Origin: a virus
Reading direction: 5' to 3' (one strand)
IMG/VR virus record: IMGVR_UViG_3300010885_010329
Span: 1 to 31,727 of that record
DNA: 31,727 bases
This document shows, piece after piece, positions 2,036-26,665 of this stretch. The notes beneath the pieces are model-generated. The model worked only from the letters and a program-made list of their open reading frames with translations. It was not told where the DNA came from and made no database searches. How positions within the stretch are numbered: position 1 is the first letter of the stretch; every line of letters starts with the position of its first letter. The position numbers and the translations under genes were made by a program.

Positions 2036-2439
2036 TTTTTACTCTCTGCGTCTATTACACGCTGTCTTAGTTCGGTTGTTGAAAAACTGTGCTTACGTTT
2101 ATTAAAATACAATTCAATATCTAAATCATGCCCTGTGAAACTATTATCTTTATATTCTTCACCTAGTATTCTAACATCAATGGGGTAAGAAAGCAAGATG
2201 TCTTTAAGCTCTTTTTCAGTAGCATAGACTATAATTTCATTTACAAATTTACAGGCTTTCAACTGTATAAAACGTTCAAACACACTTTGAACTGGTTTAT
2301 TTTTATGAGGCCGATCAATAGTTGGATCTGTTTGTAGTCCCACAATTAAAAAGTCGCATTGTCGTTTAGCCTCTTCGAGCATGATAATATGACCTGCGTG
2401 GAACAAGTCAAATGTTGAGCAAGTAAATCCTGTTTTCAT
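2032..2439 (-). CDS. Cytidylyltransferase-like nucleotidyltransferase (TagD/HIGH family)
   Basis: A small (135 aa) member of the HxGH nucleotidyltransferase superfamily. It has GFTCSTFDLFHAGHI with the HxGH motif at residues 14-17, and SFSTTELR at 118-125, equivalent to the ISSTxLR motif. Size and order match glycerol-3-phosphate cytidylyltransferase-like enzymes (about 130 aa), which join CTP or ATP to a phosphorylated substrate and release pyrophosphate. The substrate cannot be told from sequence. The start at 2439 is chosen because a longer reading frame would run back through a terminator and into groES in another frame. The ATG lies 6 nt after a consensus -10 box with no room for a ribosome-binding site. 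It opens the overlapping chain leading to gp44 and dCMP deaminase. Confidence 0.87.
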   Translation of the reverse strand: MKTGFTCSTFDLFHAGHIIMLEEAKRQCDFLIVGLQTDPTIDRPHKNKPVQSVFERFIQLKACKFVNEIIVYATEKELKDILLSYPIDVRILGEEYKDNSFTGHDLDIELYFNKRKHSFSTTELRQRVIDAESKK

Positions 2440-2445
2440 AGCTAT

Positions 2446-2474
2446 AGTATACAGAAAAAAATAGGGCTCGTCAA
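2446..2474 (-). promoter_or_regulatory. Sigma-70 promoter giving a predicted leaderless mRNA
   Basis: On the minus strand TTGACG (2474-2469) is followed by 17 bp and TATACT (2451-2446). Six bases later comes the ATG of the nucleotidyltransferase gene (2439-2437), so the expected start of transcription coincides with the A of the ATG. The TTGAC of the -35 box is exactly the loop of the groES terminator. Confidence 0.82.
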
Positions 2475-2481
2475 GAGCCCT
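2455..2481 (-). terminator. Rho-independent terminator after groES
   Basis: On the minus strand a perfect 7-bp stem, AGGGCTC (2481-2475) and GAGCCCT (2469-2463), encloses the loop TTGAC (2474-2470). It is followed by A and seven T (2461-2455). It lies 19 nt beyond the groES stop and ends the groES group. The next promoter is built into it. Confidence 0.9.
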
Positions 2482-3170: not shown

Positions 3171-3677
3171 TTATCTCAGGAATTCCTGCCAGTCTAAATT
3201 ATATTTAACGCTGTTAATTTTATGGACGCCTATCAAATACAGAGCATAGCTGGCTACACTGGATCCTCTACCTACTCCCCAAACAATATTATTAGCCCTA
3301 CAAGTATCTACAAAGTATTTGAGCCAGCGCAACAAATCCAGCATATTACGTTCTTTAAATGCTGCCATTTCTTCTGCAACCCTTGTTGATTCTGGATCCC
3401 ATGGGGGACACTGTTCTATTAACCATTGCTCAATATCTAGTGTTTTATATTCGTCGGGCATAAACCAATCAGTTTGAAGACTGCTATCGTATTCTTCAAT
3501 GCTGATATCATAGTCATCCAACGGCTTCCAGAATTTTAATTCTAACATTTCTTCTAACTTTTTGATATCATCGCTGTATTCTACAAACATTTCAGGCGAC
3601 AAAGTTTGGCCTTTGTATAAGGCTTCAAATATGTCTTTGTCGTTGAATATGGGATTGCTAAATTGATCTAGGCGCAT
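3171..3677 (-). CDS. Stand-alone fragment-like homologue of DNA polymerase III alpha (DnaE)
   Basis: The C-terminal half of this 168-residue protein closely follows bacterial DnaE/PolC just before its catalytic centre. WLKYFVDTCRANNIVWGVGR then GSS (121-140) continues into VASYALYLIGV and KYNLDWQEFLR, against the family pattern GPGRGSAAGSLVAYALGI...KYNLLFERFL. In DnaE the catalytic aspartates follow about ten residues later; here the protein stops at EFLR, so it lacks them and cannot polymerise by itself. The N-terminal half is acidic and unassigned. A promoter lies directly before the ATG, and 27 bp separate its stop from the 83-aa gene. Options: a regulatory or nucleotide-binding relic, a decoy for the host replicase, or one part of a split protein. 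Confidence 0.75.
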   Translation of the reverse strand: MRLDQFSNPIFNDKDIFEALYKGQTLSPEMFVEYSDDIKKLEEMLELKFWKPLDDYDISIEEYDSSLQTDWFMPDEYKTLDIEQWLIEQCPPWDPESTRVAEEMAAFKERNMLDLLRWLKYFVDTCRANNIVWGVGRGSSVASYALYLIGVHKINSVKYNLDWQEFLR

Positions 3678-3684
3678 AGCCTAT

Positions 3685-3713
3685 ATTTTAGTTGACTTTA
3701 ATTAAATTGTCAA
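3685..3713 (-). promoter_or_regulatory. Sigma-70 promoter, predicted leaderless or near-leaderless
   Basis: On the minus strand TTGACA (3713-3708), a 17-bp spacer and TAAAAT (3690-3685) precede the ATG at 3677 by seven bases (ATAGGCT). The expected start is the A of the ATG or the base before it. The -35 box is inside the end of the upstream 76-aa gene and the -10 box contains that gene's TAA stop. An AGG lies only 3 nt before the ATG, too close to act as a normal ribosome-binding site. Confidence 0.78.
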
Positions 3714-3918
3714 GCTCTTTATTGCGATTTTGATATTCAGTTTGCCAAGAGCGACTTCGACGAGTTTGAAGTTCGGCTTTGTAAGCATCGAGTAGATTTG
3801 AAATCTGCATTTGCAAATCTGGATTATGTGTCATAAAATATTTGCGAGTTAGATCTTGCATTTTATTTTCTAACTCGCCGTCTTTCATTGATTCAAAATT
3901 TAAACCTAATGGGTGCAT
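3688..3918 (-). CDS. Hypothetical 76-aa protein, end of the structural block
   Basis: Not recognised. It is a helical, charged protein with a basic central stretch (QTRRSRSWQ) and a likely amphipathic helix (HNPDLQMQISNLLDAYKAEL). A longer frame exists upstream, but the start at 3918 is preferred: it gives TAATG, sharing one base with the TAA of the upstream structural gene, a junction type used repeatedly in this genome. Earlier starts would overlap that gene by 60 bases. Its stop lies inside the -10 box of the next promoter. Being last in the late block, it may be a small virion or assembly protein; this is inferred from position only. Confidence 0.72.
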   Translation of the reverse strand: MHPLGLNFESMKDGELENKMQDLTRKYFMTHNPDLQMQISNLLDAYKAELQTRRSRSWQTEYQNRNKELDNLIKVN

Positions 3919-4535
3919 TATGCAAAATAACCAAGATATTTTAAGAATACAGTTGAACCGTTTGACAAATATGTCCATGCTTCGACAACATGAACTCGAT
4001 CATTTGCGCCAATGGTAAATGGACTAGGAAAAGCACTATCGTACTTTCGAGTACCTGAAGGAGTGTTGCTAAATGTTACTGGCTTAGATGTAAGACCATC
4101 ACCTTTGATATGTAATCTTACAGATGCATATTTTAAAGTGCTAGTAGTAACTGGCCAATTTTTAAACACTAATGTATAAGAAGTTCCTGTACCTAGAGTA
4201 ATCACTTGTAAAGGACCTGATTCTAGATCAATGTCAACTGTAACTGGTCCAGGTCCTCCTACGGGATTTACAGTTCCTAAATTAATAGCTTTACCGTAAA
4301 ATTCATTGTAAGTTGCGTTAACAATGGTATTTCCTAGAAAATCGTTAGTAACTGGGGTTGAGTCAGCATTACCAAGTTTTGCAGTATATGTTTGTAAGTC
4401 CCCAATTTCTTCACTAGCAACTTCGAGTGCAATTTTAATATTATTAAAATTATCTCGAAATCCTTGACTATTATTATCAATACCTGCAACTGGGTATTCT
4501 GGGTCGATGTTAGTTGTTGAAATTGCACTGGTCAT
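3918..4535 (-). CDS. Fibre-associated structural protein with 'NF' N-terminal module
   Basis: A 205-residue predicted virion protein. Its N-terminus (DPEYPVAGIDNNSQGFRDNF followed by NNIKIALE) is a variant of a module repeated at the start of other proteins here (8473-8958, 10855-12576, 12576-24065), where a turn precedes a helix with a conserved NF. Similar N-termini occur in structural proteins of marine T4-like phages. The remainder is Gly/Thr/Ser-rich with beta-strand character and ends in KYLGYFA. No enzymatic motif is seen. It overlaps the 797-aa gene by 4 nt (ATGA, 4532-4535), and a TAGGAA ribosome-binding site lies inside that gene. A late-type octamer GATAAATA at 4576-4569 could start a separate late transcript. 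Confidence 0.78.
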   Translation of the reverse strand: MTSAISTTNIDPEYPVAGIDNNSQGFRDNFNNIKIALEVASEEIGDLQTYTAKLGNADSTPVTNDFLGNTIVNATYNEFYGKAINLGTVNPVGGPGPVTVDIDLESGPLQVITLGTGTSYTLVFKNWPVTTSTLKYASVRLHIKGDGLTSKPVTFSNTPSGTRKYDSAFPSPFTIGANDRVHVVEAWTYLSNGSTVFLKYLGYFA

Positions 4536-25593: not shown

Positions 25594-26605
25594 TCTTAGA
25601 TTGTTCATAGAGGGCAAAAGAGGCTAAATTCTTACCCTTGCTCTCGCACATGATATCAAACTGATCGTTAAAGCTCAGTGCCCATTCGTTAACTGCTGTA
25701 TTCCAGTAGAAATCAGAATGTGCTCTGAGCTTTTGTTTTTTGTAGCCTTCAGTTAAGAGGGACGGAAGATCGGGAAATGTGTGTTGGGCATGTTCTCGGA
25801 GTATATCTTCGCGACTAACACTGTAATGCATAGTAGGACGGAGACCGCGCCAGCTATCAACAACCCGCTTAACACGTTCATCATTAGGTTGTATATATTC
25901 GCCCGAGTTAACCCAGTGATGATGGATGTCCATAACGATTGGAACAACATCGGCAAGTTCCAAACAGGTTTCAAGATTGTGTGTAATTTCTTCATTTTCG
26001 ATTGTGAGTGTGTTGCGGGCTTCGGGGGTTAACCGTGCCAAAGCACGACGGATACCGTTGGGACCTTGTCGGCCACTGATATGAACATTAATTTTAAAGT
26101 CTTGAAAAGTTTTTCCATAACCCATCCACCTTGCCATGTCTACATGGTATTCAAATTCTTCAATACTACGTCGAACAATATCCTCGCTGTCAGATGCCAA
26201 AACAGTAAACTGGCCAGGATGAAAGCTGAGACGAACGTTGCGATTTCGAGCCAAATCGCCCACTTGTCTAAAATGTGTTTCGGCGTAACTACGTACATCA
26301 GCTTGACGCCAAAACCAGCTCCAGCTAGACTCAGTATATACGGGAAGGAGATCACTGCTAATACGTACCATCCTAAGTGGTTCATCTAGGTTACCTACTC
26401 TTTCTATGAGTTTACGGGTTGATTCAATATTCTGTTCCATTAAGGACCAGAGCTTTTCTACTGCCACATCTTTAGTTTGGCGATTAAGCCAAGCCACGGT
26501 AGTCGAACCTGTGTTGTACTGTTTGCAGTCATCCTTGGGTTTAATACCGTTTACTTGATCTGGATTGTCGATCCATTTACAAGCAAAACCAATACGCTTA
26601 ATCAT
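25580..26605 (-). CDS. uvdE: UV-damage endonuclease UvdE/UvsE
   Basis: Nicks DNA 5' to UV photoproducts, starting an excision repair path independent of UvrABC. The 341-residue protein has the TIM-barrel metal-site motifs of the family in order: RIGFACKW at the N-terminus, RISSDLLP, LSFHPGQF, INVHISGRQG, LTIENEE and MDIHHHW, together supplying the His/Glu/Asp ligands. Length is normal (about 300 in Thermus). The start at 26605 is preferred over an in-frame TTG three codons earlier because MIKRIG begins like family members and the ATG overlaps the TGA of a possible 9-codon leader. T4 instead uses the glycosylase DenV, so this is a different solution for sunlit-water DNA damage. It has its own sigma-70 promoter and so is probably expressed early. 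Confidence 0.93.
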   Translation of the reverse strand: MIKRIGFACKWIDNPDQVNGIKPKDDCKQYNTGSTTVAWLNRQTKDVAVEKLWSLMEQNIESTRKLIERVGNLDEPLRMVRISSDLLPVYTESSWSWFWRQADVRSYAETHFRQVGDLARNRNVRLSFHPGQFTVLASDSEDIVRRSIEEFEYHVDMARWMGYGKTFQDFKINVHISGRQGPNGIRRALARLTPEARNTLTIENEEITHNLETCLELADVVPIVMDIHHHWVNSGEYIQPNDERVKRVVDSWRGLRPTMHYSVSREDILREHAQHTFPDLPSLLTEGYKKQKLRAHSDFYWNTAVNEWALSFNDQFDIMCESKGKNLASFALYEQSKITAS

Positions 26606-26631
26606 AATAACCAATCAATAAAAATGGACAT
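26602..26631 (-). CDS. Possible 9-codon leader peptide overlapping the uvdE start
   Basis: The first ATG after the uvdE -10 box opens a short frame encoding MSIFIDWLL, whose TGA (26604-26602) overlaps the uvdE ATG as ATGA. The ATG lies 5 bases after the -10 box, so it would be at or near the 5' end of the mRNA. uvdE itself has no visible ribosome-binding site, so coupling from this leader could load ribosomes. It is too short to be sure by sequence alone. Confidence 0.35.
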   Translation of the reverse strand: MSIFIDWLL

Positions 26632-26654
26632 AGTGTATTATAACACCATGTCCA
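26620..26654 (-). terminator. Terminator of queD with the uvdE -10 box in its loop
   Basis: On the minus strand TGGACATGGTG (26654-26644) pairs with CACTATGTCCA (26635-26625), 10 of 11 positions with one mismatch, around the 8-base loop TTATAATA. It is followed by five T (26624-26620) and ATT. This is the form of a rho-independent terminator and lies 24 bases beyond the queD stop. Because the dyad surrounds a promoter, it could also be an operator. Confidence 0.72.
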
Positions 26655-26665
26655 CTCTAGGTCAA
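26637..26665 (-). promoter_or_regulatory. Sigma-70 promoter of uvdE
   Basis: On the minus strand TTGACC (26665-26660), a 17-bp spacer and the perfect TATAAT (26642-26637). The -10 box is in the loop of the queD terminator, and the expected start (about 26631) is in its 3' arm, so the new transcript cannot form the hairpin. Confidence 0.8.

Follow-up and report, generated by a model that had tools for sequence, protein, structure and literature searches.

Intrinsic (Rho-independent) terminators, sigma-70 promoters, leaderless mRNAs and overlapping operons are each already known. The terminator of one operon may even overlap the beginning of the following operon, as in E. coli frd/ampC, where a terminator downstream of the promoter has an attenuating effect. 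Phage messages that begin with the AUG itself are known as well (e.g., lambda cI transcribed from PRM; leaderless phage mRNAs, Brock et al., 2008). In Kayvirus 515A1, an early phage promoter immediately follows a terminator (t97/p98); the accessible part of that report describes the two signals as adjacent and mentions no -35 box in the loop (PMC7698491). Furthermore, E. coli RNA polymerase was found in vitro to undergo post-termination recycling with reinitiation at nearby promoters (37%, rising to 55% when sigma was added), and reinitiation is said to depend on the distance between terminator and promoter (PMC6978380). The accessible part of this work deals with an in vitro construct in which a terminator is close to the reinitiation promoter, and the nested geometry is not studied there. 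Our searches of the open-access literature turned up neither a -35 box contributed by a terminator loop nor the recurrence of such an arrangement across phages.

Here we describe such an arrangement in a virus contig of 31,727 nucleotides (31.7 kb; "the window" refers to this whole stretch). Its predicted terminator resembles other intrinsic terminators in having a GC-rich stem, a short loop and a T tract directly after a gene, whereas its loop is taken up by a fixed -35 hexamer and not by a stability-favoured tetraloop such as TTCG. The promoter has the TTGAC(N)-17-TATAAT layout of host sigma-70-type phage promoters (e.g., T4-like early promoters), but its -35 box falls within the preceding unit's terminator. 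In contrast to frd/ampC, the terminator surrounds the -35 box and lies upstream of the predicted RNA start, and in contrast to lambda cI, a whole class of phage genes is found at a fixed distance of 6-7 nt from the -10 box.

Organization of the groES-nucleotidyltransferase junction

The window encodes, among others, a phage clamp loader, PhoH and a deaminase. The upstream unit of the junction contains a groES-like (Cpn10) gene (2501-2890; Pfam Cpn10, E = 7e-8; PHROG head morphogenesis/GroES). The gene following the junction encodes a nucleotidyltransferase (cytidylyltransferase-like) of 135 aa (2032-2439; Pfam PF01467, E = 8e-15; PHROG 7878) and is predicted to be leaderless; the clamp-loader gene (760-1674; PHROG 168, E = 1.5e-79) belongs to the same downstream unit. 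All three genes, as well as all features of the junction, are on the minus strand. No Rfam family matched in the window.

Read on the minus strand from the end of groES to the nucleotidyltransferase gene, the sequence consists of AGGGCTC, TTGAC, GAGCCCT, A, TTTTTTT, CTG, TATACT, ATAGCT and ATG. AGGGCTC (2481-2475) and GAGCCCT (2469-2463) form the GC-rich 7-bp stem and TTGAC (2474-2470) the loop of an intrinsic-terminator hairpin (2463-2481), which was also picked up by a terminator scan. The T7 tract of this terminator (2455-2461) is the place where the RNA 3' ends are predicted. The entire loop and the base that opens the 3' arm of the stem make up the -35 box TTGACG (2469-2474), which is separated by a 17-bp spacer (2468-2452) from the -10 box TATACT (2446-2451); the six-base discriminator ATAGCT (2440-2445) and the ATG of the nucleotidyltransferase gene (2439-2437) follow. 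In the promoter scan, the nested promoter scored 10/12 with a spacer of 17. Its hexamers lie within the 16-18 bp that define a promoter of the sigma-70 type, a class assignment made from the boxes and their distance. Judged by the usual distance between -10 and +1, the RNA would start at the A of the ATG (2439). The first-pass annotation had described a groES terminator with a 7-bp stem, the loop TTGAC and seven T, as well as a -35 box TTGACG in the loop, a 17-bp spacer, TATACT and six bases to the ATG. All these elements proved exact on direct reading, and the terminator needs only one refinement, an A between the stem and the T run.

Taken singly, such signals are not conspicuous. Scans of the whole window revealed 66 promoter-like sites (49 expected from shuffled sequence) and 12 terminator-like sites (9 expected), i.e., numbers little above chance. 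The nesting is what is conspicuous: a strong promoter whose -35 box is enclosed by a hairpin occurs once in the window, versus an expectation of about 0.08.

Conservation of the junction in relatives

Relatives of the junction were gathered via the clamp loader encoded downstream, which yielded 80 loci; a search with the single groES sequence found one relative only. About 50 of the 80 loci possess a hairpin with a TTGAC (or TAGAC) loop 17-18 bp before a TATAAT-like box. This hairpin is usually located right after groES or another gene, and the first genes downstream of it differ. At all 38 unique junctions the loop is TTGAC or TAGAC, and the spacing between the -35 and -10 boxes is 17-18 in every one of them. 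In the clamp-loader tree, the element is confined to a single clade of 58 rows with 100% support and is absent from its sister of 23 rows; in the few rows of the 58-row clade that lack the element, the contig ends there.

Pairing of the stem is almost complete: 264 of 266 cells (38 distinct junctions, seven pairs) are Watson-Crick, and compensatory changes can be found in all seven columns. If the 3' halves are re-dealt among the junctions, 215 pairs are obtained (sd 5.2; maximum 235 in 1000 rounds), and for the 16 distinct stems 110 of 112 positions are paired versus 88 on re-dealing, although these shuffle figures are not strict probabilities because the junctions are phylogenetically related. 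The stem, treated as a label on the clamp-loader tree, has changed at least 28 times. The conserved columns are the GAC of the loop, the -10 box and the T tract that directly follows the stem. This tract has no counterpart on the 5' side, and three of its positions have T in 97%. The d-score, an approximate value here, is above 0 in 31 of 39 junctions and is high in the window (23); in about one fifth of the junctions the T tract is weak (d-score of 0 or below), so termination may be partial there. In unbiased relatives, all seven TTGAC-loop terminators have a -10 box at 16-18.

In view of the covarying stems, the fixed spacing of 17-18 bp and the conserved T tract, the sharing of bases between terminator and promoter, as described in the first-pass annotation, is under selection. 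The annotation had also proposed an alignment of the junction in related phages as a check on whether the spacing drifts. In this alignment the hairpin and the -35 and -10 boxes keep their places, but the distance from the -10 box to the ATG does not, being mostly a leader of 17-20 nt.

In several relatives (L084, L096, L119, L120, L122, L137), the hairpin and the -10 box are retained with TAGACA as the -35 box, which suggests that a hairpin can persist after a strong -35 box has been lost. A motif TTTGAG(C/T)AAC, situated just before the stem (8 to 17 bases upstream of TTGAC), is moderately conserved in many relatives (L083-L138); neither pairing nor the promoter explains it.

Occurrence in other phages

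In generalised form, the geometry was searched as GGNNNTTGACNNNCC with three T, plus TATAAT at a distance of 17 bp; this pattern has at least 122 matches in viral contigs (note that contigs are counted, not independent origins). Among the 122 viral matches listed, 71 have a perfect stem of at least five pairs, many of them with 7-12 pairs. With the anagram CATTG instead of TTGAC, the pattern has 3 viral matches. With the -10 box shifted to 21 bp it has 8, an imperfect control because seven of these 8 also have TATAAT at 16-17 bp, i.e., four to five bp nearer. Bacterial and archaeal genomes (257 Gb) contain 61 matches, with five pairs in three of them and six pairs in none. The number of viral matches with real stems, compared with the controls and with bacteria, points to the nested geometry as a phage habit.

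The viral contexts are varied: the element precedes genes for a high-light-inducible protein, glutaredoxin and members of PHROGs 878 and 431, and it follows genes for Hsp20 or PstS. In 21 of the 122 listed viral matches (L204, L210, L250-L264 and others), the upstream ORF ends on the TGA within TTGAC, so that its stop codon occupies bases of both the loop and the -35 box in these contigs. The element is located before hli03 in the cultured Synechococcus phages S-CAM1, ACG-2014d and S-H9-2 and, with one stem mismatch, in Syn1. In S-RSM4, S-WAM2, S-SCSM1 and S-SRM01 it is found before a PHROG-878 gene, with TTGATC, TTGACA or TTGATT as the -35 box. It is absent from Syn9 (whole genome scanned); S-PM2 has a different hairpin instead, and in Bellamy the promoter precedes the hairpin. 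A blastn search of cultured phages with one variant gave no match, and the hli03 variant gave many.

The window and each of three larger records carry one copy of the element, and a 345-kb record (G001) carries two. Genome-wide use inside one phage was rejected on these copy numbers. In G001, a second TTGAC-loop hairpin promoter is situated near the start of the record (L163:827) and has an unrelated stem, TGTAGGGAC.

Predicted leaderless start of the nucleotidyltransferase gene

In the window, the ATG is located six bases after the -10 box, at the expected +1 of the promoter, and no Shine-Dalgarno sequence is present in the 30 nt upstream of 2439. In most relatives, the nested element is followed by a leader of 17-20 nt with AAAGGAG; an ATG six bases after the nested -10 box is found only in the window, L051 and the L109 group. 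Since most relatives are leadered, the exact leaderless spacing lies outside the conserved composite and is a separate, less conserved trait.

Over all loci, the gap between the -10 box and the ATG is 6 (25 cases) or 7 (12 cases), never 9-12, and then mostly at least 16. Genes of the near class (5-8 nt) in four larger relatives are devoid of Shine-Dalgarno sequences, whereas those of the far class usually have them; one larger relative possesses five genes with a gap of exactly six. The spike at gaps of 6 and 7 (37 starts) is dominated by one family, a DNA-polymerase-like gene, whose promoter overlaps the 3' end of the upstream gene. In the window, this leaderless-type promoter, TTGACA-17-TAAAAT-7-ATG (3675-3713, minus strand), precedes the DNA-polymerase-like gene 3171-3677, and its TAAAAT box begins with the TAA stop codon of the upstream ORF (3688-3978). 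A gap of 6 or 7 at this promoter is kept in about 30 relatives. The nucleotidyltransferase gene itself is located 6-7 nt after a promoter, without a hairpin, in three further lineages (L142 group, L160, L123); in L060 it starts after a leader.

Leaderless expression of the window gene is predicted as likely. The first-pass annotation's leaderless start stands for this gene and for a class of genes, given the 6-7 nt spike without Shine-Dalgarno sequences, but not as a part of the conserved nested element.

Interpretation of the nested element

We interpret the 45 bases as a composite punctuation element, consisting of the terminator of the groES unit and the promoter of the next unit, and assign this reading a probability of about three in four. 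In RNA entering from the groES unit, the stretch 2481-2455 would fold as an intrinsic terminator and end the unit. As double-stranded DNA, the same stretch would present the loop TTGAC(G) as the -35 box and, with TATACT as the -10 box, form a promoter of the host sigma-70 type, from which the nucleotidyltransferase-to-clamp-loader unit would start. As transcripts of this promoter are predicted to begin downstream of the hairpin, the two signals can share bases without sequence conflict. The mutual exclusion of hairpin and promoter proposed in the first-pass annotation is doubtful as worded: the hairpin can form only in RNA coming from upstream, and the promoter RNA would start downstream of it, so no structural exclusion is expected. 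A polymerase terminating at the T tract and an initiating one may nevertheless compete, because both need the same DNA. Selection keeps both signals, most likely for compactness and insulation, whereby every polymerase arriving from upstream would halt at the very point at which the next unit takes over at a rate of its own. In the phage studied here, transcription would begin with the first base of the ATG, and the enzyme would be made from a leaderless mRNA. Judging from the comparisons among phages, the nesting is a real and widespread measure of phage economy.

A chance overlap of two common signals agrees with the near-shuffled frequency of each signal taken singly, but is refuted by the covariation, the synteny in relatives and the enrichment of the pattern over its controls. 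The inverted repeat could also be an operator, with a dimeric regulator bound to a dyad centred on the -35 box and termination being secondary or absent. In favour of this, the repeat is symmetric around the -35 box, one subgroup often shares the half-site ACAGGGCT, and the T tract is weak in some members. The half-site is not conserved, however: 16 distinct stems and at least 28 changes on the tree are observed with the pairing kept, the repeat is usually present in one copy per genome, and the same geometry exists in other phages with unrelated stems and strong T tracts. A T tract conserved on the 3' side only and a stem that changes yet always pairs are predicted by an intrinsic terminator and not by an operator, and we consider the latter quite improbable. 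Promoters of the N4 type, with a hairpin near -12 and no sigma-70 boxes, suggest yet another explanation, in which a phage polymerase recognises a DNA hairpin extruded as a cruciform or single strand, in the style of the N4 virion RNA polymerase. The distance from hairpin to -10 box is fixed, as this would require, but the hairpin is around -33, a complete pair of -35 and -10 boxes is held at 17-18 bp, and a T tract is conserved 3' of the stem; this explanation is thus extremely improbable.

The remaining alternatives concern the use of the element rather than its nature. The nucleotidyltransferase gene might be expressed in the ordinary leadered way, with an RNA start a few bases off or with read-through from groES, so that the six-base gap would be meaningless. 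Most relatives have a Shine-Dalgarno leader, and start-site choice can slip by 1-3 bases; the sharpness of the spike at 6-7 nt, the empty range of 9-12 and the missing Shine-Dalgarno sequences, both in that class and before 2439, speak against it, leaving leadered expression as a possibility of limited weight. Alternatively, the polymerase might stay on the DNA after release of the groES RNA and reinitiate at the promoter beneath it. The terminator-promoter distance is zero here and the geometry is widespread in phages, but compaction alone accounts for the nesting, and recycling in living cells is, according to the accessible part of the report, not demonstrated for E. coli either (PMC6978380). 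We regard such active coupling as rather improbable; compaction with insulation is the simplest account. Similarly speculative is the broader proposal of a phage-specific, repeatedly evolved class of composites (the loop being the next -35 box and sometimes a stop codon) that hand the polymerase over by post-termination reinitiation. If this hand-over were true, downstream output would track upstream traffic without read-through.

Phage genomes thus appear to fit the end of one unit and the start of the next repeatedly into a single stretch of 30-45 bases, in which the pairing of the hairpin is preserved along with the promoter boxes. The nested element would escape gene finders, as well as programs for predicting promoters or terminators, if they handle these signals separately. 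It also represents a ready-made natural test of RNA polymerase recycling from terminator to promoter, made feasible by the cultured Synechococcus phages that carry it, and the leaderless gene class described above is a second testable claim.

Other hairpins in the window

Another nesting is present on the minus strand at 26621-26665, where the promoter TTGACC-17-TATAAT has its -10 box as the loop of a hairpin with 16 pairs, after which comes TTTTTATT. An ORF of 341 aa begins downstream, with its ATG at 26605. A similar case can be found in L187 (G006). As a general counterpart of the element, a -10 box in the loop was rejected, being not enriched (5 of 975 promoters versus 98 of 21,627 TATAAT-like sites without a -35 box). 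Furthermore, a symmetric terminator, AAAAGGGCCTTATTGGCCCTTTT, is situated at 233-255 between the convergent PhoH and deaminase genes and probably serves both.
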